A stretch of 64,000 nucleotides of DNA. Source: Patiriisocius marinistellae (GTDB lineage Bacteria; Bacteroidota; Bacteroidia; Flavobacteriales; Flavobacteriaceae). Positions 39,204 to 50,631 of this stretch are shown in pieces. Both the position numbers and the translations under genes were made by a program. The stretch is from the NCBI RefSeq assembly GCF_009014635.1, contig NZ_BKCF01000005.1:1-64000 (forward strand), read 5' to 3'. Every line of letters begins with the position of its first letter. Position 1 is the stretch's first letter. Below the pieces are notes generated by a model. That model had not been told where the DNA came from and did no database searches. It saw nothing but the letters and a program-made list of their open reading frames with translations.

Positions 39204-40460
39204 TTATAATCCAAACGCTTCTTTTACTTTGTCTACATAATCAAGCTTCTCCCAAGTAAACAACTCAACATCCATAGTTTTATCGCCACCATTTGGTAAT
39301 GAAAATGTTTTAGAGACAACTTCGTTTTTACGTCCCATGTGTCCATAAGCAGCAGTTTCGCTATAAATAGGTTGGCGTAAGTTTAGTCTAGTTTCAATTG
39401 CAGAAGGTCGCATGTCAAAAATTTGTGCTACTTTTTTTGCAATCTCTCCATCTGTTAAGTTTACTTTTTTAGTTCCGTAGGTATCTACAAAAATCCCCAT
39501 AGGTTCAACGACTCCTATTGCATAACTTACTTGTACTAAAAGCTCATCACAAACTCCAGCAGCAACCATGTTTTTAGCAATGTGTCTTGTTGCATAGGCT
39601 GCAGAGCGGTCTACTTTACTAGGGTCTTTTCCTGAAAAAGCACCACCACCGTGTGCGCCTTTTCCACCATAAGTATCAACAATAATCTTACGACCTGTAA
39701 GGCCAGTGTCACCATGAGGACCGCCTATTACAAATTTACCTGTAGGATTAATATGATAGGTAATATCATCATTAAACAATGCTTGAATTTCTGGTTTTAA
39801 TGTCGCTTTTACTCTTGGGATTAAAATAGAAACAATGTCACTTTTAATTTTAGCAAGCATTTTTGTATCATCAGCGTCAAAGTCATCATGCTGAGTTGAT
39901 ATTACAATACTGTCAATGCGCACTGGTTTATTATCATCACTATATTCAATAGTTACTTGACTTTTTGAGTCTGGCCTTAAATAAGGTATATCTTTTTCTT
40001 CTCTTCTAAGTACTGCAAGTTCTTGCAATAATTTATGAGATAAATCAAGTGCTAAAGGCATGTAATCTTCAGTCTCCTTTGTAGCATAGCCAAACATCAT
40101 TCCTTGGTCGCCTGCACCTTGTTCTTCCTTGGTGTCACGGTCAACACCACGATTAATATCGTCACTTTGCTCGTGTATCGCAGAGAGTACTCCACAGGAG
40201 TTACCGTCAAATTGGTACTCTCCTTTTGTGTAACCAATTTTGTTGATTACATCACGTGCAATTTTTTGCACGTCTAGATATACGTCACTTTTAACCTCGC
40301 CGGCAAGCACCACTTGTCCAGTAGTTACAAGCGTTTCGCAAGCTACTTTTGACTGTGGGTCAAAGGCAAGAAAATTATCAATTAATGCATCGCTTATTTG
40401 GTCTGCAACTTTATCTGGGTGTCCTTCCGAAACACTTTCAGAAGTAAATAAATACGCCAT
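39204..40460 (-). CDS. metK: S-adenosylmethionine synthetase
   Basis: 418 residues from the ATG at 40460 ([21 protein letters not shown]); an in-frame ATG further upstream at 40505 would lie in the leader and is rejected. Signature [15 protein letters not shown], the [12 protein letters not shown] motif, [25 protein letters not shown]. Makes SAM from methionine and ATP. The presumptive SAM-II-type riboswitch upstream gives feedback control by its own product. Confidence 0.98.
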
Positions 40461-40536
40461 AAAATGGGTTTTAATGTTTAAAATGTTGAGGTTGATTTGA
40501 CGCAAGTGGTCACAGAAGATTACAAAAAAAATGTAA

Positions 40537-40634
40537 TACCTGATTTAGCATTTTAATCCAATAGTTATTGGATTATTTTTTCTGAAATTTAAAATTTTCA
40601 GAAGAGGTTGCAAGCAGTCAAATCTTTCCTCTTT
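40537..40634 (-). ncRNA. SAM-II-type riboswitch with long loops (metK leader)
   Basis: Read on the minus strand, AAGAGG (40628-40633) pairs with CCTCTT (40602-40607) as P1, enclosing GATTTGACTGCTTGCAA, close to the SAM-II loop consensus. The conserved 3' element ATGCTAAATCAGG (40539-40551) includes GCTAAA and a CAG that pairs the loop CTG as pseudoknot P2. Between lie two extra hairpins (around 40579-40601 and 40556-40574), which matches the SAM-II variant with long loops described from Bacteroidota. It starts a few bases after the promoter and ends ~77 bases before the metK ATG. Confidence 0.8.
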
Positions 40635-40644
40635 AATTATTGAG

Positions 40645-41712: not shown

Positions 41713-42120
41713 ATGTTGACTAGAAAAACTAAATATGGATTAAAAGCATTATCATTTTTAGCTAAACAAGAACCTGGAATTCCGGTCCAAATTTCAAAAA
41801 TTGCGGAGGCAGAAAATATATCTCTCAAATTTTTAGAAAGTATTTTATTGATGTTGAAGAAAAATGAACTGCTTATTTCTAAAAAGGGAAAAGGAGGTGG
41901 TTATATTTTAGCTAAAAGTCCTAACGATATATCGCTAGCATCTGTATATAGGGTTTTAGAGGGTCCTATTGCTTTAGTGCCTTGTGTGAGTCTAAATTTT
42001 TATCAAAAATGCGACGATTGTAAAGATGAAGAGACATGCTCAATTCATGATTTTATGATAGAAGTTCGTGACAGTAATTTAAAAATTTTTGAAAATAAAT
42101 CTGTAGCAGATTTAGTGTAA
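41713..42120 (+). CDS. Rrf2 family transcriptional regulator
   Basis: 135 residues: winged helix (TRKTKYGLKALSFLAKQEPG, ISLKFLESILLMLKKNELL, GKGGGYILAKSP) and a C-terminal CDDCKDEETCSIHD cluster with Cys positions typical of Fe-S-binding or metabolite-sensing Rrf2 proteins. In flavobacteria such genes head sulfate-assimilation operons. The dyad-like sequence before the next gene is the probable binding site. Confidence 0.93.
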   Translation: MLTRKTKYGLKALSFLAKQEPGIPVQISKIAEAENISLKFLESILLMLKKNELLISKKGKGGGYILAKSPNDISLASVYRVLEGPIALVPCVSLNFYQKCDDCKDEETCSIHDFMIEVRDSNLKIFENKSVADLV

Positions 42121-42240: not shown

Positions 42241-42867
42241 ATGAATTTACATACGATAACCACTGGTTCTATAAGTGAGTTAAACAAAAAATATAGATTT
42301 AGTCAACCTAAATTAATTATTGAATTTGCTTTATCAATTGCAAAAAATCCATTGTTAACAACTAGCTTTGGGCCTAACTCAGCAGCTATTCTACATTCTG
42401 TTGCTACAATAAAAAATGATATTCAGGTTGTCTGGTGCGATACAGGGCATAACACTAACGCTACAATTAAGCATGCGGCTAAACTACAACACTTATTAAC
42501 ACTAAATCTTGATGTTTTTAGGCCAAAGAGAGCGCTCCCTATACCTACTAAAAATAAAAATGATACTCAAGAATTTGAATTATTTGTTGATACAGTAAAG
42601 TTAGAGCCATTTGCTAGAGCAATAAAACAGTATAAACCAGATGTGTGGTTTACTACAGTTAGAAAAAAGCAAGGTGCTTATAGAGACGAGTTAGATATAT
42701 TTAGTATAACTAATGATGGTGTATTACGAGTAAGTCCATTTTATCATTTTAATAATGAGCAAATTACTAGTTATTTGAATCTAAGAGGGCTCCCTATTGA
42801 ATATGATTATTTTGACCCTACAAAACCAGATGCTAATAGCGAATGCGGAATTCAATTTCTTGTTTAA
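42241..42867 (+). CDS. Phosphoadenosine phosphosulfate (PAPS/APS) reductase family protein
   Basis: 208 residues. PP-loop-like nucleotide motif TTSFGPNSAAILHSV near residue 40, VVWCDTGHNT, the KKQGAYRDELD stretch, and a C-terminal SECGIQFLV in which Cys matches the catalytic ECGLH Cys although His is replaced by Gln. The family reduces APS or PAPS to sulfite with thioredoxin. No cysD/N/J genes are in the window, so sulfate use must lie elsewhere, or this copy does another job. Downstream of Rrf2 with a probable operator. Confidence 0.88.
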   Translation: MNLHTITTGSISELNKKYRFSQPKLIIEFALSIAKNPLLTTSFGPNSAAILHSVATIKNDIQVVWCDTGHNTNATIKHAAKLQHLLTLNLDVFRPKRALPIPTKNKNDTQEFELFVDTVKLEPFARAIKQYKPDVWFTTVRKKQGAYRDELDIFSITNDGVLRVSPFYHFNNEQITSYLNLRGLPIEYDYFDPTKPDANSECGIQFLV

Positions 42868-42895: not shown

Positions 42896-43840
42896 ATGAA
42901 AATCCCATCAAAAATTGATTTTATAAATACTGTAGCTCGTGTATCTCCACATGTACATCAAACGCCTATTTTAACATCTAGACTTTTAAATGAAATTAGC
43001 GGTGCGCAGCTTTATTTTAAATGCGAGAATTTTCAAAAAATGGGTGCGTTTAAAATGCGTGGTGCCATCAATGCAATGTTAAAATTAAGTGAGGCTCAAA
43101 AGAGAGCAGGGGTAGTAACTCATTCGTCGGGTAATTTTGCTCAAGCAGTTTCACTAGCGGCAAAAAACTTGAATATTCCTGCATACATTGTAATGCCATC
43201 AAATGCGCCACAAGTAAAAGTCAAGGCGGTGAAGGGTTACGGAGGACAAATTACAACCTCAAACCCAACTATACAAAGTCGTGAAGAAGAAGCATTGAAA
43301 ATTGAAAAAGAAACAGGAGCAACATTTTTGCATCCCTCAAATAATATTGACGTTATTTTAGGGCAAGGAACCGCAGCATTTGAGTTACTTGAAAAACATA
43401 CAGATTTAGATATTATTGCAACTCCAGTGGGAGGAGGTGGGTTGCTTGCAGGCACAGCTGTTGCAGCACATTATTTTGGCAATACGTGTACTGTAATTGC
43501 AGGAGAACCCTTTGAAGCAGACGATGCATTTCAATCACTCCAAGCGGGTAGTATTCAATATAATGATACTGTAAATACGGTAGCAGATGGTTTGCGTACA
43601 CACTTGGGGAATCATAATTTTCCTATTATACAAGAGTTGGTTTCTCAAATTATACGTGTTGACGAAGAGGAAATTATAACCGCAATGAGATTAATTTGGG
43701 AGCGTTTAAAAATAATTATTGAGCCTTCCTCTGCTGTTCCTGTCGCAGCGATTTTAAGAGAAAAACATCAATTTAAAGGAAAAAAAATAGGGGTCATAAT
43801 TTCTGGCGGAAATGTCGATTTATCAAACTTGCCTTTCTAA
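42896..43840 (+). CDS. Threonine/serine dehydratase (PLP, fold type II)
   Basis: 314 residues. PLP lysine in KCENFQKMGAFKMRGAINAM, Gly-rich phosphate loop in TPVGGGGLLAGTA, and SGGNVDLSNL at the end. Length and lack of a C-terminal ACT-like domain fit catabolic threonine/serine dehydratase or serine racemase rather than biosynthetic IlvA. Only 28 bases after the sulfur gene, same strand. Confidence 0.93.
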   Translation: MKIPSKIDFINTVARVSPHVHQTPILTSRLLNEISGAQLYFKCENFQKMGAFKMRGAINAMLKLSEAQKRAGVVTHSSGNFAQAVSLAAKNLNIPAYIVMPSNAPQVKVKAVKGYGGQITTSNPTIQSREEEALKIEKETGATFLHPSNNIDVILGQGTAAFELLEKHTDLDIIATPVGGGGLLAGTAVAAHYFGNTCTVIAGEPFEADDAFQSLQAGSIQYNDTVNTVADGLRTHLGNHNFPIIQELVSQIIRVDEEEIITAMRLIWERLKIIIEPSSAVPVAAILREKHQFKGKKIGVIISGGNVDLSNLPF

Positions 43841-43869: not shown

Positions 43870-44961
43870 ATGAGCAGAATTTTACTTGCGTTTTTTTTAT
43901 GTATTACAGTTTCTGCATTCGCACAGGAAACTCCACATGCAAACGTTGAGGTCAATTACTTTTATGGAACTATTCTAAGGCACAATAAGGATATTGCACA
44001 TTTAATAAAAGGACATCCAGAAGGATTTATTTTAAGTTACAACCAGCAAACCTTTGGTAAAAATCGTTGGGAAGAAGCCTTTAATTATCCAGATTATGGC
44101 TATTCAATTTTATACCATAATTCACATAATGGCACATTGGGGAATACTATTGGGGCATTAGGTCACTATAATTTTTATTTCTTAAATCGAAATTTAATGT
44201 TACGAGTTGCACAAGGAATATCTTATGCGACCAATCCATTTGATTTAGACAAAAACCCTAAAAACAATGCCTACGGAAGCGATTTACTCGCAACCACATA
44301 TATTCTACTCAACTATCAAAAGAAAAATATATTCAAAGGTTTTGGTGTTCAAGCCGGTTTAACTTTTATTCACAACTCAAATGCAAATTTTAAAGCACCC
44401 AATTCCAGTACAAATACCGTAGGTGTAAACCTAGGTATCACGTACGAGCTTGACGGAGGGTTAGAAAAAGAATATGTAGAAAATAATACCTTCGGAAAAG
44501 TGACTGCACCCATACATTTTAATTTGATGGTACGGGGGGGTGTTAATGAAAGTGATTTTTTAGGACTAGGGCAGAAACCATTTTTTATTCTTAGTGCATT
44601 TGCTGATAAACGCTTGAGTTTTAAAAGTTCTATCCAATTAGGAACCGAAGTATTCTTTTCAAAATTTTTAGAAAGTGAGATTGATTATATCGCTGCAGCT
44701 TTCCCAAACAGAGGAATATCTGGTGATGAAGATTATAAAAGAGTAGGGATTTTTGCAGGACACGAATTACATGTCAATAAATTATCTTTCATCACACAAA
44801 TAGGGTATTATATATATTATCCATACGATTTTGAAGGACGAATTTATTTTAGACCTGGTTTAAAATATTATATTTCAGAAAAAATATTTACCGAAGTAAC
44901 TCTTAAAACACACGGGGCAAAAGCAGAGGCAATTGAATTTGGATTAGGGTTTAGAATATAA
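43870..44961 (+). CDS. PagL/acyloxyacyl-hydrolase-like outer-membrane protein, copy 1
   Basis: 363 residues: signal peptide (to FAQ), then beta-barrel strands with VEVNYFYGTILRHNKDIAHL, EGFILSYNQQTFG, GHYNFYFLNRN and the HxS catalytic motif in FIHNSNANFKAPN (His168, Ser170), as in lipid A 3-O-deacylase PagL; then SGDEDYKRVGIFAGHEL and a C-terminal strand. About twice the length of PagL. First of three alternating hydrolase/GIN-lipoprotein pairs. Presumed LPS or lipid deacylase at the outer membrane; activity not shown. Confidence 0.82.
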   Translation: MSRILLAFFLCITVSAFAQETPHANVEVNYFYGTILRHNKDIAHLIKGHPEGFILSYNQQTFGKNRWEEAFNYPDYGYSILYHNSHNGTLGNTIGALGHYNFYFLNRNLMLRVAQGISYATNPFDLDKNPKNNAYGSDLLATTYILLNYQKKNIFKGFGVQAGLTFIHNSNANFKAPNSSTNTVGVNLGITYELDGGLEKEYVENNTFGKVTAPIHFNLMVRGGVNESDFLGLGQKPFFILSAFADKRLSFKSSIQLGTEVFFSKFLESEIDYIAAAFPNRGISGDEDYKRVGIFAGHELHVNKLSFITQIGYYIYYPYDFEGRIYFRPGLKYYISEKIFTEVTLKTHGAKAEAIEFGLGFRI

Positions 44962-44967
44962 TTTAAA

Positions 44968-45741
44968 ATGAAAAAAAAGACTCATATAATACAAAAAGCA
45001 CTTACAGTTTTTACAATTGTAGTCCTCTTAATTTCTTGTAATTCAGAAAACGGAAGCGATTGTTTTCAATCTGCAGGAACTATTGTGGAAACTAATTTTA
45101 CGGTAGCTCCATTTTCCGAAATTAGAGTAGAAGGAGAAGTCACTTTAACAATAGTTCAAGGTGAAGTACAAGAGGTTATTGTAGAGACCGGAGAAAATTT
45201 ATTGTCAGATGTACAAGTTACAGTTGAGGGTGATATTTTAGTTATTAGGGATGATAACACATGTAATTTTGTTCGTGATTATGGAGTGACGAAGGCGACT
45301 GTAACTACCCCAGTTTTAACTAAAATTCAAAACTCGTCAAGTTCTGACGTAACGGGAGTTGGGCAATTAACATTTCCGAAGTTAACCTTACAGAGTAATA
45401 CCTCGGGAGGATTAGCAGACCCATTAAAAGGTGGTGATTTTTATGTAAATGTTGCTTGTGATGAACTTAGGGTTAGCGCAAATGGGCAAAGTATATTTTA
45501 TGTAAGTGGCTCAGCTTCCACAACAATTATAAGTTTCCTTGATGAAAATCCTCGATTTGAAGGAAGAGATTTAGCAATAGAAAATTTAGAGGTGTTTCAA
45601 AGGAGCGCTAATAAAATAATAGTCAATCCTCTCAATGAAATTAAGGGGGCAATTGTGGGTACAGGAGATGTGATTTCAATCAACAGGCCGCCAATTGTTG
45701 AGGTTGAAGAACGGTTTACAGGACGTCTTATTTTTGAATGA
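44968..45741 (+). CDS. Lipoprotein with head GIN domain (DUF2807), copy 1
   Basis: 257 residues. Lipobox LLISC (Cys24), then Cys32 in DCFQSAG, then a beta-helix-like GIN (DUF2807) domain with FSEIRVEGEVTLTIVQG, VETGENLLSDV and Cys99 in TCNFVRDYG, ending in GRLIFE. Cys32 and Cys99 are conserved in the two other copies and could pair. Its stop overlaps the next hydrolase start (ATGA, 45738-45741), so the genes are coupled. DUF2807 is common on Bacteroidota lipoproteins, with unknown function. Confidence 0.82.
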   Translation: MKKKTHIIQKALTVFTIVVLLISCNSENGSDCFQSAGTIVETNFTVAPFSEIRVEGEVTLTIVQGEVQEVIVETGENLLSDVQVTVEGDILVIRDDNTCNFVRDYGVTKATVTTPVLTKIQNSSSSDVTGVGQLTFPKLTLQSNTSGGLADPLKGGDFYVNVACDELRVSANGQSIFYVSGSASTTIISFLDENPRFEGRDLAIENLEVFQRSANKIIVNPLNEIKGAIVGTGDVISINRPPIVEVEERFTGRLIFE

Positions 45742-46892
45742 TGCGTTGGGGATTTGCTTCATATTTCCAGTATAACTATTCACTATCGGTACTTTTATTT
45801 TTTGTTTTTTTGAGTGTGAATGCTCAAGATTTAGAAAATGAAAAGTTGCCTTCATTTTATAATATTCAAGTTGATTATTACTACGGAAATATACTAGAAC
45901 ATAACCCAGATTTATCTCATTTAATACAAGGACATCCCACAGGTGTTTTAGCCTCTTTTAACCGAAAATCTTACGGTGCAAAAAACTGGGAGCGTTTTTA
46001 TAATTATCCAGATATAGGGGTGACTTTTGGCTATCAAGACACTCATAATCCCATTTTAGGAAAGCAGTTAAGTTTAAATGGTCATTTCAGCTTTTATTTT
46101 CTAAAACGAAATTTACAGCTTACCGCAGGGCAGGGGCTTGCATATATTACAAATCCATACGATTTTAATAACAATCCATATAACAATGCCTATGGGTCAC
46201 GATTTACTACCTCGATGTTCTTTAAGTTAGGGTATGTAAAAGAGAATATTTGGAATGGCTTTGGATTTCAAACAGGGTTATTTTTCATGCATTATAGTAA
46301 CGGAAATTTTAAAGCTCCTAACACTAGTACAAATACAATAGGAATAAACGTAGGAGTTAAATATAATTTTAATCATGAAAATTTTCCAGCATATATATCA
46401 TTACAAGATGGGGAAAGTACTAAGGATTTTTCCGAAAGAATAAAATACAATATTATGTTTAGAGCTGGTATTAACCAAAGTGATGTCATAGGCTCGCCAC
46501 GATATCCTTTTTTTGTAATTTCGGGGTTTGCTGACAGGCGGTTAAATTATAAAAGCACCTTGCAAATGGGGGTGGATATATTTTTTATGAAATATCTTAA
46601 AAAATATATTGCGTATAGAGCAGTGGCGTTCCCGGAAGATGGATATTCAGGAGATGAAGACTACAAGCGAGTAGGTTTGTTTGTAGGGCATGAGTTGCGT
46701 TTTAGTAAAACTGCATTTGTAACTCAATTAGGGTATTATGTATATTTTCCGTTTGATAATGGTAATAGGATATACAACCGTTTAGGGATAAATAGATATT
46801 TGTTTAACGACAAATATTTTGCTGGAATATCAGTAAAATCACATTGGGCAAAAGCCGAAGCTATTGAATTTAGTGTAGGAGCAAGACTTTAA
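45738..46892 (+). CDS. PagL/acyloxyacyl-hydrolase-like outer-membrane protein, copy 2
   Basis: 384 residues: signal peptide after an N-terminal extension (cleavage near VNAQ), the same architecture as copy 1 (YNIQVDYYYGNILEHNPDLSHLIQGH) and motif FFMHYSNGNFKAPN (His185, Ser187). SGDEDYKRVGLFVGHELRF near the end. Its ATG overlaps the upstream stop by 4 bases. More similar to copy 3 than to copy 1. Confidence 0.82.
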   Translation: MMRWGFASYFQYNYSLSVLLFFVFLSVNAQDLENEKLPSFYNIQVDYYYGNILEHNPDLSHLIQGHPTGVLASFNRKSYGAKNWERFYNYPDIGVTFGYQDTHNPILGKQLSLNGHFSFYFLKRNLQLTAGQGLAYITNPYDFNNNPYNNAYGSRFTTSMFFKLGYVKENIWNGFGFQTGLFFMHYSNGNFKAPNTSTNTIGINVGVKYNFNHENFPAYISLQDGESTKDFSERIKYNIMFRAGINQSDVIGSPRYPFFVISGFADRRLNYKSTLQMGVDIFFMKYLKKYIAYRAVAFPEDGYSGDEDYKRVGLFVGHELRFSKTAFVTQLGYYVYFPFDNGNRIYNRLGINRYLFNDKYFAGISVKSHWAKAEAIEFSVGARL

Positions 46893-46906
46893 TTAGTATT
46901 TCTGAA

Positions 46907-47656
46907 ATGAGACATATTTTATACATATTTATTACATTAGGATTCATTAGTTGCGATGATGAAAACAGCTCAAATTGTTTCCAAACCGCAGGGGATATTG
47001 TGACTTCCGAAGTAAGTATAGCGGCATTTAATAAAATATTAGTTTGGGAACAAGTCACACTATTTATTGAAGAAGGCGACACACAAAAAGTGCGTATTGA
47101 AACTGGTGAAAATTTATTAAAGGATATTGAATTAGTAGTAATTGATGATCAGCTCAATATTTATGATAATAACAGCTGTAATTTTTTGAGAGATTATGGC
47201 ATTACTAAAGTATATGTAACCTCACCAAATATTACCGAAATTAGAAGTAGTACAGGCTTTCCCATTTCTAGTATTGGGACGTTAAATTACCCAGAAATTA
47301 AACTTATTAGTGAAGACCAAGGTGTCTCTGGAATAACACATACAGATGGCGATTTTAATATCACACTTGCTACCGAAAAATTAGATATAATTTCAAATGG
47401 TTTTGCAATTTTTAAGATAGATGGTACTGCAACAAATGCTAGTATGAGTTTATTCGCTGGTAATACGGGTATAGAAGCGCGAAACCTTGTAGTTGAAAAG
47501 TTAAATTTATACCACCGCAGCAGCAATAATATGTATGTAAACCCCATTCAATCCATTAGAGGTCAAATTGTTAGTTTTGGTAATGTGGTTTCGGTAAACA
47601 TGCCAGATTTTATTGCGGTTGAAGAATTGTTTGACGGTAGGCTACTTTTTGAATGA
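46907..47656 (+). CDS. Lipoprotein with head GIN domain (DUF2807), copy 2
   Basis: 249 residues. Lipobox GFISC (Cys16), Cys24 in NCFQTAGD, VWEQVTLFIEEGDTQ, IETGENLLKDIEL, Cys91 in SCNFLRDYGITK, the KVYVTSPNITEIRSSTG block, HTDGDF and terminal GRLLFE. Shares several blocks with copy 3 (SEDQ, HTDGDF, IRSSTG, HRSS) that copy 1 lacks, so copies 2 and 3 are the younger pair. Beta-helix-type predicted fold; envelope-anchored. Confidence 0.82.
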   Translation: MRHILYIFITLGFISCDDENSSNCFQTAGDIVTSEVSIAAFNKILVWEQVTLFIEEGDTQKVRIETGENLLKDIELVVIDDQLNIYDNNSCNFLRDYGITKVYVTSPNITEIRSSTGFPISSIGTLNYPEIKLISEDQGVSGITHTDGDFNITLATEKLDIISNGFAIFKIDGTATNASMSLFAGNTGIEARNLVVEKLNLYHRSSNNMYVNPIQSIRGQIVSFGNVVSVNMPDFIAVEELFDGRLLFE

Positions 47657-47687
47657 TTAAGTTATATTTACGCTTCTTAATTTCTAT

Positions 47688-48812
47688 ATGAAGCATTTCT
47701 ATTTTTTATTTATTTTCTGTTTTTGTAGCATTTCGCTATTAGCCCAAGATGCTCCCAAAGATGAAAGTAAAAAGTATTTTTCTTTGGAAGCAGATTACTA
47801 CTATGGTAGTATTTTAGAACATAATCCAGATATTCAACACGTTATTACAGGACACCCTCGTGGAGTTACTTTGTCTTATAATAGAAAGACATTTGGAGGA
47901 GAAGCTTGGGAGCGTTTTCATCGCTATCCAGATTGGGGTGTGACTGCTATTTATCAAGACATGCAGAATGAGTTTTTAGGCGAAGCTTTTAGTTTGTACG
48001 GTCATTATAACTTTTATTTTTTTCAACGTAATGTGGTTGTGAGGGTAGGTCAAGGTATTGCTTACAGTACAAACCCATTTGATCGTGAATCAAATTTTAA
48101 TAATAATGCATACGGAACAAGGTTTTTGAGTTCCACATTCTTAAAGTTTAACTATGTAAAAGAAAATTTTTATAAAGGATTTGGTTTTCATGCAGGATTT
48201 TCAATCATTCATTATAGTAATGCAAATTTAAAGGCACCTAATAATAGTACAAACACATTTGGGCTGAATGCTGGTGTGAGTTATCAGTTAGATTATGAGA
48301 ACCTTCCTGAATATACACCTATTCAAGAAGGGGAAAATAGCAAAGATTATGCAGAGCCTATTAAATATAATATAGCATTTAGATTTGGAGTGCACGAAAG
48401 TGATGTCGTAGGTTCTGGGCAATTTCCTTTTTATATTGTTTCGGCTTTTGCAGATAAGCGTATTAATTATAAAAGTACATTGCAGGCAGGTATTGATGTT
48501 ATGTTTTTGCCTTTCATGAAAGAGTTTATAAAATATCGCTCTATAGCTTTTCCTGAAGACGGATTATCTGGAGATGAAGATTGGAAACGGGTAGGATTGT
48601 TCGTAGGACATGAATTGCGATTTAATAAAGTTGCTTTTGTATCTCAATTGGGGTATTATGTATATTATCCATTTGAATTTGAAAACAGAGTTTATAACCG
48701 CTTAGGATTAAAACGTTATTTCTTAGGAGATAAAGTGTTTGCTTCTGTAACCGTAAGAGCACATTGGGCAAAAGCAGAGGGAGTAGAATTTGGTTTAGGA
48801 ATACGATTGTAA
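47688..48812 (+). CDS. PagL/acyloxyacyl-hydrolase-like outer-membrane protein, copy 3
   Basis: 374 residues: signal peptide (to LLAQ), FSLEADYYYGSILEHNPDIQHV, RGVTLSYNRKTFGGEAWERF, HxS motif SIIHYSNANLKAPN (His175, Ser177), GLSGDEDWKRVGLFVGHEL and the last strand GVEFGLGIRL. Same fold and order as copies 1 and 2, with the highest similarity to copy 2. Its stop lies 1 base before the next start. Confidence 0.82.
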   Translation: MKHFYFLFIFCFCSISLLAQDAPKDESKKYFSLEADYYYGSILEHNPDIQHVITGHPRGVTLSYNRKTFGGEAWERFHRYPDWGVTAIYQDMQNEFLGEAFSLYGHYNFYFFQRNVVVRVGQGIAYSTNPFDRESNFNNNAYGTRFLSSTFLKFNYVKENFYKGFGFHAGFSIIHYSNANLKAPNNSTNTFGLNAGVSYQLDYENLPEYTPIQEGENSKDYAEPIKYNIAFRFGVHESDVVGSGQFPFYIVSAFADKRINYKSTLQAGIDVMFLPFMKEFIKYRSIAFPEDGLSGDEDWKRVGLFVGHELRFNKVAFVSQLGYYVYYPFEFENRVYNRLGLKRYFLGDKVFASVTVRAHWAKAEGVEFGLGIRL

Positions 48813-48813
48813 T

Positions 48814-49566
48814 ATGAAAAAACTACTTTTAATATTGAGCGTTTTATGGTTGGTAAGTTGTACCTCACCTCAAGATTCATTAAATTGTTTTCAAAGCGCA
48901 GGTAAAATTATAGAAACCGAAATGAGCGTTGCTCCATTCACAAAAATAATTGTTTGGGAACGCACTCAGTTATTTATTTCACAAGGAGAAACACAGCGAG
49001 TTGTCATTGAAACTGGTGAAAATTTACTTGATGATGTAGAATTACAAGTCATCGATGGTGAACTCAATATTTTTAATAATAATAGTTGCAATTTAGTACG
49101 GGATTATGGCATTACTAAAGTATACGTGACCTCGCCCAACATTAACCAAATAAGGAGCAGTACAGGGCTTACAACACAAAGTATTGGTGTATTAAGATTC
49201 CCAGAGTTATTATTGTTAAGTGAAGATCAAGATAATGAAGATGAATTTCATACAGATGGCGATTTTATCCTTGATCTAGATGTTCAAAATTTAAGAATAG
49301 TTGCAAATGGACTTTCTAGATTTTATTTGAAAGGGAGTGCTGAAAGAGCAGATTTTGGACTTTTTTCTAGTGATTGCGGTATTGAAGCACGAGACTTAGT
49401 AATTCAAAATTTAAATATATTTCATCGCAGTACAGATGTAATGGTAGTTAATCCACAACAATCCATAACGGGAAGAATTGTAAGTGTTGGTAATTGTATT
49501 TCTACAAATAGACCTCCCATTATTAATGTAGAAACGCCATATCGTGGTGAGTTAATTTTTGAGTAG
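48814..49566 (+). CDS. Lipoprotein with head GIN domain (DUF2807), copy 3
   Basis: 250 residues. Lipobox WLVSC (Cys16), Cys25 in NCFQSAGK, IIVWERTQLFISQGETQ, IETGENLLDDVELQV, Cys92 in SCNLVRDYGITK, KVYVTSPNINQIRSSTG, HTDGDF, terminal GELIFE. Last gene of the six-gene array; no terminator hairpin is evident after it, and a repeat remnant follows at 49603. Confidence 0.82.
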   Translation: MKKLLLILSVLWLVSCTSPQDSLNCFQSAGKIIETEMSVAPFTKIIVWERTQLFISQGETQRVVIETGENLLDDVELQVIDGELNIFNNNSCNLVRDYGITKVYVTSPNINQIRSSTGLTTQSIGVLRFPELLLLSEDQDNEDEFHTDGDFILDLDVQNLRIVANGLSRFYLKGSAERADFGLFSSDCGIEARDLVIQNLNIFHRSTDVMVVNPQQSITGRIVSVGNCISTNRPPIINVETPYRGELIFE

Positions 49567-49725: not shown

Positions 49726-50631
49726 TTACTCTTTAGTTAATTCTACAAATAACTTTTCAAGCGTAGTGTTTTTTTGATGTAATTGCAGAATTTTTAAACC
49801 GCTATCGTGAGCAAAATCAAACACGTCTCCACGCATATCCTTCTCAGTATTGCAATAAATATTATAGACAAAACCAACTACATTTTCTACTTTTGACACG
49901 TTAGGTATTTTGCATAAAGCAACTTCTTCTACACGATAATCAAACTCTACCTCAATAATTTGTTGTTTACTTTTATTTAAATCTGCAATTTTTTTATCAA
50001 GTACAATTTCGCCTTTATTTATTATGATAACACGGTCGCACATAGCTTCCACTTCTTGCATTATATGTGTTGAAAGAAGGATTGTCTTTGGCTCTTTTTT
50101 ATTGCTAAAATTTTTAATTAATGACCTAATCTCAATAAGTTGATTAGGGTCAAGACCCGTTGTTGGTTCATCAAGGATTAAAACTTTAGGGTCATGTAAT
50201 AAGGCATTAGCAAGACCTACACGTTGACGATACCCTTTAGACAATTGCCCTATTTTTTTATGTGCCTCCGGAGTTAAGTCTGTTTGTGTGATGACTTCGG
50301 CTACCGCTGTTTTAGAGACACCGTAAATGTTTGCATTAAACTCTAAATATTCTTTTACATACATATCCAGATATAAAGGATTGTGCTCTGGTAAATAGCC
50401 TATGCTTTTTTGGACTTGTTTTTTTTCTTTATCTACGTCAAAACCATTTACTATAGCGCTACCTTTAGTTGCATTGAGATAGGTTGTTAGTATCTTCATC
50501 ATTGTAGATTTTCCTGCACCGTTAGGGCCTAAAAACCCTACGACTTCTCCCTCATTAATATGAAATGATACATTTTTTAAGGCCTGCTGATTTCCATAGG
50601 TCTTTGTGATATTTTTTATAGTAATTGCCAT
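49726..50631 (-). CDS. gldA: Gliding motility-associated ABC transporter ATPase GldA
   Basis: 301 residues: Walker A GPNGAGKST, signature LSKGYRQRVGLANALLHDP, Walker B VLILDEPTTGLDP and H-loop STHIMQEVEAMCDR. The wording VQKSIGYLPEHNPLYLDMYVKEYLEFNA matches flavobacterial GldA, partner of GldF and GldG in gliding. gldF/gldG are not in the window. A generic ABC ATPase remains possible. Confidence 0.85.
   Translation of the reverse strand: MAITIKNITKTYGNQQALKNVSFHINEGEVVGFLGPNGAGKSTMMKILTTYLNATKGSAIVNGFDVDKEKKQVQKSIGYLPEHNPLYLDMYVKEYLEFNANIYGVSKTAVAEVITQTDLTPEAHKKIGQLSKGYRQRVGLANALLHDPKVLILDEPTTGLDPNQLIEIRSLIKNFSNKKEPKTILLSTHIMQEVEAMCDRVIIINKGEIVLDKKIADLNKSKQQIIEVEFDYRVEEVALCKIPNVSKVENVVGFVYNIYCNTEKDMRGDVFDFAHDSGLKILQLHQKNTTLEKLFVELTKE

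Follow-up and report, generated by a model that had tools for sequence, protein, structure and literature searches.

A conserved pair of long-form PagL-family barrel and GIN lipoprotein genes, repeated three times in Patiriisocius marinistellae

The window analysed here, a 64,000-nucleotide (nt) stretch of Patiriisocius marinistellae DNA (Flavobacteriaceae; contig NZ_BKCF01000005.1, positions 1 to 64,000), carries at 43870–49566 six open reading frames (ORFs) on the same strand, in which a gene for a PagL-like hydrolase and a gene for a lipoprotein of the DUF2807 (head GIN) family alternate strictly, making three two-gene units. The two genes form a long-lived pair that is carried by most of the relatives sampled. 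A functional pairing of the hydrolase with the GIN lipoprotein is well supported. For the further proposal, that together they make up a two-component outer-membrane acyl-hydrolase module with the GIN lipoprotein as its dedicated partner, we see an even chance.

Three units in the window and one pair among relatives

The first unit consists of hydrolase copy 1 (43870–44961, on the + strand, as are all six genes; 363 amino acids), a long PagL-family barrel of the A type with His168, Ser170, Asn171 and Asn182, and an A-type GIN lipoprotein (44968–45741; 257 amino acids) with lipobox Cys24 and two more conserved cysteines. Hydrolase copy 2, of a divergent B type (45738–46892; 384 amino acids), has a start that overlaps the stop of GIN copy 1 by 4 nt; it is followed by GIN copy 2 (46907–47656; 249 amino acids), which is nearest to the B type by identity and unplaced in the tree. 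The third unit is of the B type throughout, with hydrolase copy 3 (47688–48812; 374 amino acids; His175, Ser177, Asn178 and Asn189) and GIN copy 3 (48814–49566; 250 amino acids; lipobox Cys16 and conserved Cys25 and Cys92). The junctions are, in order, a 6-nt gap, the 4-nt overlap and gaps of 14, 31 and 1 nt, and the original prediction of six co-directional, strictly alternating genes with gaps or overlaps of at most 31 bases was correct to the base.

Judged by Pfam's curated cut-offs, ORFs 1, 3 and 5 match the PagL family (PF09411; E 1.7e-17, 2.7e-19 and 1.6e-22) and ORFs 2, 4 and 6 match DUF2807 (PF10988; E 8.2e-36, 6.8e-35 and 8.6e-32), all well above the cut-offs; none of the six proteins matched NCBIfam at E up to 0.1. 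The GC content is near 33%. Genome-wide (3.3 Mb) there are only 4 PagL-family and 8 DUF2807 matches, and since three of each alternate in the array, the arrangement is not one of chance; one more PagL-family match and five more DUF2807 matches lie elsewhere in the genome.

To follow the pair, one profile per protein was built on its three window copies and run against 149 genomes from the window's family, the genome of the window among them. Matches were counted as strong down to E 7.4e-41 for the hydrolase (139 matches in 118 genomes) and down to E 5.6e-28 for the GIN protein (133 matches in 116 genomes), and weaker ones to either profile, at least 11 of them to that of the hydrolase, were dropped as other paralogues. 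Both proteins were present in 116 genomes, the hydrolase alone in two (G015 and G016), the GIN protein alone in none and neither in 31. One genome with no hydrolase match (G089; 82% complete, in 260 contigs) holds a sub-threshold GIN stretch of 51 residues (E 1.5e-17), which may be a fragment of a genuine GIN protein.

For 133 of the 139 strong hydrolase matches, the same strand carries a GIN match no more than 1,500 bases further downstream. Measured between match ends, the gap was at most 31 bases for 88 of the 139 hydrolases and at most 156 bases for 123, with overlap in 21 cases; seven gaps were of 332–516 bases, one of these where the match to a single gene falls into two parts (G022); in three more, of 1,116–1,160 bases, a second hydrolase lies in between (G113, G058 and G003). 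Of the six hydrolases with no GIN downstream, two belong to the rearranged locus of G144 and one is the unpaired third copy of G063; the match in G015 sits close to the end of its contig, that in G016 is partial, and for the last, in G088, the GIN match is on a separate contig. Five loci (L071, L081, L089, L091 and L093) have a small gene between the hydrolase and the GIN gene that reads, by its sequence, as glyoxalase/VOC-like.

Trees were built from 61 loci, these being the window and 60 stretches selected among the 118 genomes, most of them lying on long contigs, with 77 hydrolases and 74 GIN proteins between them. Repeated pairs occur in 12 loci, from 11 genera. First copies form a clade in both trees (12/12 hydrolases, local support 0.93; 12/12 GIN proteins, 1.0), and so do later copies (14/14 hydrolases, support 0.98; 12/13 GIN proteins, 0.58). 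The exception is GIN copy 2 of the window, which stands outside the later clade in the midpoint-rooted tree and is 55 and 54% identical to B-type GIN proteins and 41% to GIN copy 1. Three loci with a single pair (L049, L055 and L086) have a hydrolase and a GIN protein both of the later type, the rearranged locus L050 has hydrolases of both types with a first-type GIN protein, and no cross-type pair was seen among the 61 loci. Because first-type hydrolases go with first-type GIN proteins, and later with second-type, the unit was duplicated early and its partners have kept together.

In the window, copies 2 and 3 are the closest, as had been proposed: the hydrolases are 56% identical (47 and 50% for the other pairings) and the GIN proteins 55% (41 and 45%). 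The stepwise duplication proposed with this is also supported, but is ancient, with 72% identity between hydrolase copy 3 and a second-copy hydrolase from another genus. By its sequences, the array is an ancient A/B duplication of the unit with one extra B-like copy. A recent tandem duplication is ruled out by the mutual identity of the window copies (41–57%) and by their grouping by copy type across genera. That the two proteins work together, as the original prediction held, is supported by the 116 of 149 genomes with both and by partner types that stay joined through duplication.

The predicted barrel and its lipoprotein

Every one of the 77 hydrolases has the motif His-x-Ser-Asn and a further Asn at +14 from the His, and all 33 aligned hydrolases match PF09411 with the active site included. 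These residues point to an apparently intact Ser-His-Asn active site and a putative catalytic activity. Where signal peptidase is expected to cut, all 33 aligned hydrolases have a Gln (Q20), in line with the Q-rule reported for Bacteroidota (PMC5837995); a loose text pattern for this Gln fits 49 of the 77.

The hydrolases had been described as about twice as long as PagL, and they are, with 363–384 amino acids against 166–176 in the short PagLs of five plasmid records (four distinct proteins). The stretch between the His and the C-terminus measures 190–200 residues in the long forms and 25–28 in short PagL-family proteins with the motif, in a comparison of 30 loci of the phylum that omits L175 and L181, in which the motif is not clear. 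Conservation is much the same in the C-terminal half as in the region covered by Pfam, since the 70 invariant positions of the 33 aligned hydrolases divide into 37 within the first 200 residues and 33 beyond. An AlphaFold model of the barrel has 16 strands, eight up to the active-site hairpin and eight after it, at low confidence (predicted local distance difference test, pLDDT, 46.7). Its Foldseek matches were generic large barrels (TamA, BamA, OmpG and others) and were discarded as evidence, the model being too poor. An internal duplication of 8+8 strands was likewise rejected, a profile comparison of the two halves giving no signal (best E 0.088, probability <1%).

The Asn at +14 was considered as a signature of OMPLA, or as proof of a non-PagL enzyme, and was dropped, since this residue varies in the PagL family and in PldA alike. 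It is Asn or Asp in short PagL-family proteins of the same phylum and Asp in two Pseudoalteromonas PagLs. Of the 10 PldAs examined, seven have Asn, two Asp and one Glu, and PldAs from plasmids show all three residues; the position is therefore no discriminator. Given the long C-terminal part, the mismatch to the phospholipase A family PF02253 (below) and this variable position, we name the protein a long-form PagL-family barrel, not PagL.

The GIN partner has an invariant lipobox Cys16 and equally invariant Cys25 and Cys92 (copy 3 numbering) in 39 aligned sequences, and its model (pLDDT 76.5) has the fold of solved DUF2807 proteins (Foldseek match to 3pet, E 3.8e-9, template modelling scores 0.69/0.79). 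Over 34 loci its mean tree distance is 1.28, compared with 0.84 for the hydrolase and 0.55 for metF, so that it is the faster-evolving of the two partners. In the 67 of 74 GIN proteins that fitted our search pattern, the residues after the lipobox Cys are most often [D/N]-S-E-N, with Ser at +3 in 42, Glu or Asp at +4 in 60 and Asp at +5 in 11; they are similar, not identical, to SDDFE, a pattern of one polar and then several acidic residues given in one report as the surface-export consensus of Flavobacterium johnsoniae (PMC5080379). The GIN protein may be located at the cell surface.

When genome contigs were searched with a profile of the GIN alignment, there was one distant match only. A protein from Bacteroidales (L001:6584-8209) joins a GIN domain (E 1.9e-38) and an OMP_b-brl_2 barrel (E 1.6e-6, just above cut-off) in one chain, so a GIN domain and a barrel can form one machine. 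Its gene follows one for an ECF sigma factor and one for a 460-amino-acid protein with no Pfam match, and further upstream are cysE and a cysK-like gene, which may be a coincidence.

In the module that we propose, the first gene would encode an exported long-form PagL-family beta-barrel with a Ser-His-Asn active site, which would cut an acyl chain off an outer-membrane lipid. The second would encode a dedicated GIN lipoprotein that would dock on the barrel and, in physical contact with it, control its folding, access or substrate choice. The window copies presumably serve different lipids, conditions or partners. Lipid A is a possible substrate, but in Zunongwangia profunda, a species whose carriage of the pair was not checked, 15:0(3-OH) is reported to be retained besides 17:0(3-OH) on the reducing glucosamine of lipid A (PMC9470727), which argues against a constant PagL-type activity in that species. 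Sulfonolipids, described as outer-membrane lipids of this phylum (PMC9304779), are an attractive alternative candidate.

Operon context and rival explanations

Across the 61 loci, metF lies directly upstream of the pair in 41, usually after two metH pieces and at a median gap of 34 nt. Names of the met genes were confirmed with NCBIfam on one locus, L062, in which two neighbouring genes each encode one part of the methionine synthase MetH (L062:3936-7635); sequence clusters of both pieces span about 50 of the 61 loci. S-adenosylmethionine (SAM) riboswitches of the SAM-I class occur in 118 of the 149 genomes, and at least 71 of 119 hydrolase arrays are preceded by one on their own strand at a distance of no more than 12 kb. 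Among the matches listed, 37 loci have a SAM-I within the stretch, and in all but one of these (L083) solely same-strand genes run from riboswitch to hydrolase; 20 of the 37 have all gaps of at most 150 nt, and 16 read exactly metH-N, metH-C, metF, hydrolase. The pair is thus frequently the last element of a methionine/sulfur operon, in many cases one that follows a SAM riboswitch. We infer co-transcription; counts of promoters and terminators were at chance level.

The window array is not so placed. Directly upstream of it by 29 nt, as in nine further fetched loci, is a gene for a pyridoxal phosphate-dependent enzyme (42896–43840, +), which is preceded by genes for a phosphoadenosine phosphosulfate reductase-domain protein (42241–42867, +) and an Rrf2-family regulator (41713–42120, +). 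A search with Rfam at the gathering threshold showed no SAM riboswitch ahead of the array. The sole Rfam match of the window at that threshold is a SAM-II at 40535–40637 on the − strand, preceding a gene at 39204–40505 that reads, by its sequence, as S-adenosylmethionine synthetase. SAM control of the window array was rejected, as this SAM-II is on the other strand and the genome's one SAM-I among the matches listed is on another contig. Convergent with the array is gldA (49726–50631, −), for a gliding-motility ABC ATPase (TIGR03522, above cut-off), which is not thought to be part of the hydrolase–GIN unit. In 51 of the 61 loci a gene for a GldA-like ATPase occurs on the other strand within six genes downstream, and the surrounding gene order is widely conserved, with gldA, pheA and tyrA nearby. 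The pairing is stronger than the methionine context, as the pair is retained in loci where no met genes were seen alongside (L095, L097, L099 and L127–L129).

This context raises a rival explanation in terms of nutrient uptake or salvage, which we think unlikely though it deserves weight. A wide barrel with a lipoprotein lid, resembling SusC/SusD in logic only, would import, or cut and import, a sulfur- or methionine-related nutrient or lipid. Such import would account for the frequent position in SAM-riboswitch operons, and the rival gains from metF directly upstream in 41 of 61 loci, from the unbroken same-strand genes in 36 of the 37 riboswitch loci among the matches listed and from the 16 strands, predicted at low confidence. 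Against this stand a hydrolase motif invariant in 77/77 proteins, Pfam matches with no TonB, plug or SusD domain, and the several loci that keep the pair outside a methionine context.

A true PagL-type lipid A 3-O-deacylase with the GIN protein as its chaperone or regulator is the reading nearest to the original prediction, which saw the lipoprotein as perhaps a chaperone, cap or substrate presenter of a PagL-like hydrolase; we hold this reading to be improbable. PF09411 does run across the active site in 33/33 members, and a brief local alignment with the solved PagL 2ERV around that site falls short of significance (E 0.2), but the active-site hairpin lies mid-chain, with 190–200 residues from His to C-terminus where short forms have 25–28. 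Asn also replaces Glu, though short PagL-family proteins show Asn or Asp as well. In Z. profunda, a family member that may or may not carry the pair, the reducing glucosamine of lipid A is reported to retain two 3-OH acyl chains (PMC9470727).

Several observations weigh against the dedicated module itself. Conservation of residues, being evidence from sequence, does not prove hydrolase activity, and the barrel model is poor (pLDDT 46.7). Odd hydrolases occur as an unpaired third copy (L041), in the rearranged locus L050 and in the order hydrolase–hydrolase–GIN (L095 and, by coordinates, G003 and G058). Tree-distance partial correlation over 34 loci is 0.68 for the hydrolase and GIN protein, 0.82 for the two MetH halves and 0.41 for either partner with gldA, but gldA and pheA, for which we know of no interaction, reach 0.69, equalling the pair, and the measure was set aside as not decisive for contact. 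We also took 20 more loci, of 5–7.5 kb each, around the genome's fourth PagL-family gene and weaker or more distant PagL-family matches. Three carry both genes (L127 and L128, from other families of the order, and L129, from the same family) and 17 show no such GIN gene within the 5–7.5 kb, so a PagL-type enzyme needs no GIN protein in general. Set beside the counts over 149 genomes, this means that the orthologous pair is nearly obligate and that the broad families are not tied together. The original prediction would, by its own test, have been refuted by families often found apart in related genomes; they are not so among the orthologues (hydrolase alone in two of 149, GIN alone in none), whereas the broad families do separate (17/20 loci, and five DUF2807 matches elsewhere in the window's genome).

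The hitch-hiking of an independent surface adhesin, merely co-transcribed in a well-conserved gene order, would suit that order (gldA, pheA, tyrA), the equal gldA–pheA correlation and a Porphyromonas gingivalis DUF2807 protein reported as an adhesin (PMC10949514), a further point against the module, but is quite improbable for a pair that outlasts changed surroundings, whose duplication involves both genes at once and preserves the matching of types, and which leaves no strong GIN match without a hydrolase among 149 genomes.

The pair is thus present in 116 of the 149 family genomes sampled, yet has no NCBIfam match and no description that we could find. The original prediction knew of none, and none appeared in the literature searched, which covered few subscription-journal papers; related long barrels on plasmids are annotated merely as 'acyloxyacyl hydrolase'. 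If the two proteins do form an enzyme–lipoprotein complex, it would give a handle on the function of the GIN domain and would tie the remodelling of outer-membrane lipids to methionine/SAM status. A bolder extension, which we regard as a long shot, is SAM-riboswitch-controlled salvage or remodelling of surface lipids: on shortage of SAM or methionine, the methionine enzymes would be made together with a GIN-guided hydrolase that deacylates outer-leaflet lipids, possibly sulfonolipids. The GIN domain would then gain a defined role as the partner of an outer-membrane enzyme.

Comparison with known systems

The window hydrolases share with PagL (PF09411; PDB 2ERV) a Pfam match across nearly the whole model, the His-x-Ser-Asn motif, a following P-N and a predicted barrel. 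They differ in length (363–384 against 166–176 amino acids), in the roughly 195 residues and eight predicted strands past the active site and in having a lipoprotein partner. PagL is a small 8-strand barrel with its active site in the last hairpin, and this is not matched by the 16 strands predicted, at low confidence, here. The motif residues have catalytic roles in both PagL and PldA, and in PagL the Glu at +14 belongs to the triad; the window-type hydrolases have Asn at +14 (77/77) where 2ERV has Glu, which separates nothing, as short PagL-family proteins also have Asn or Asp.

With OMPLA/PldA the hydrolases share an active site placed mid-chain in a larger barrel and the spacing of His, +2 Ser, +3 Asn and +14 Asn found in Escherichia coli PldA, a weak likeness because +14 varies among PldAs. 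PF02253 was absent from the matches of all 33 aligned hydrolases at E up to 1, we know of no lipoprotein partner of PldA, and the window's genome has a separate PF02253 phospholipase A gene (G000:C3:212640-213275, − strand). A PF02253 match is present in only 19 of the 149 family genomes, that of the window among them.

The lipoproteins share their family and predicted fold with the solved DUF2807/head GIN proteins (PF10988; PDB 3pet, 3ljy, 3lyc, 3jx8 and 4opw). The array GIN proteins differ from these as dedicated, co-duplicated neighbours of a barrel, with a lipobox and two more invariant cysteines.

Similar in logic are SusC/SusD and other barrel–lipoprotein pairs of Bacteroidota, in which, as here, a barrel and its own lipoprotein are encoded side by side. 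There is no Pfam family in common, and Pfam finds no TonB, plug or SusD domain in the window copies or the 33 aligned members; the barrel here bears a hydrolase motif.

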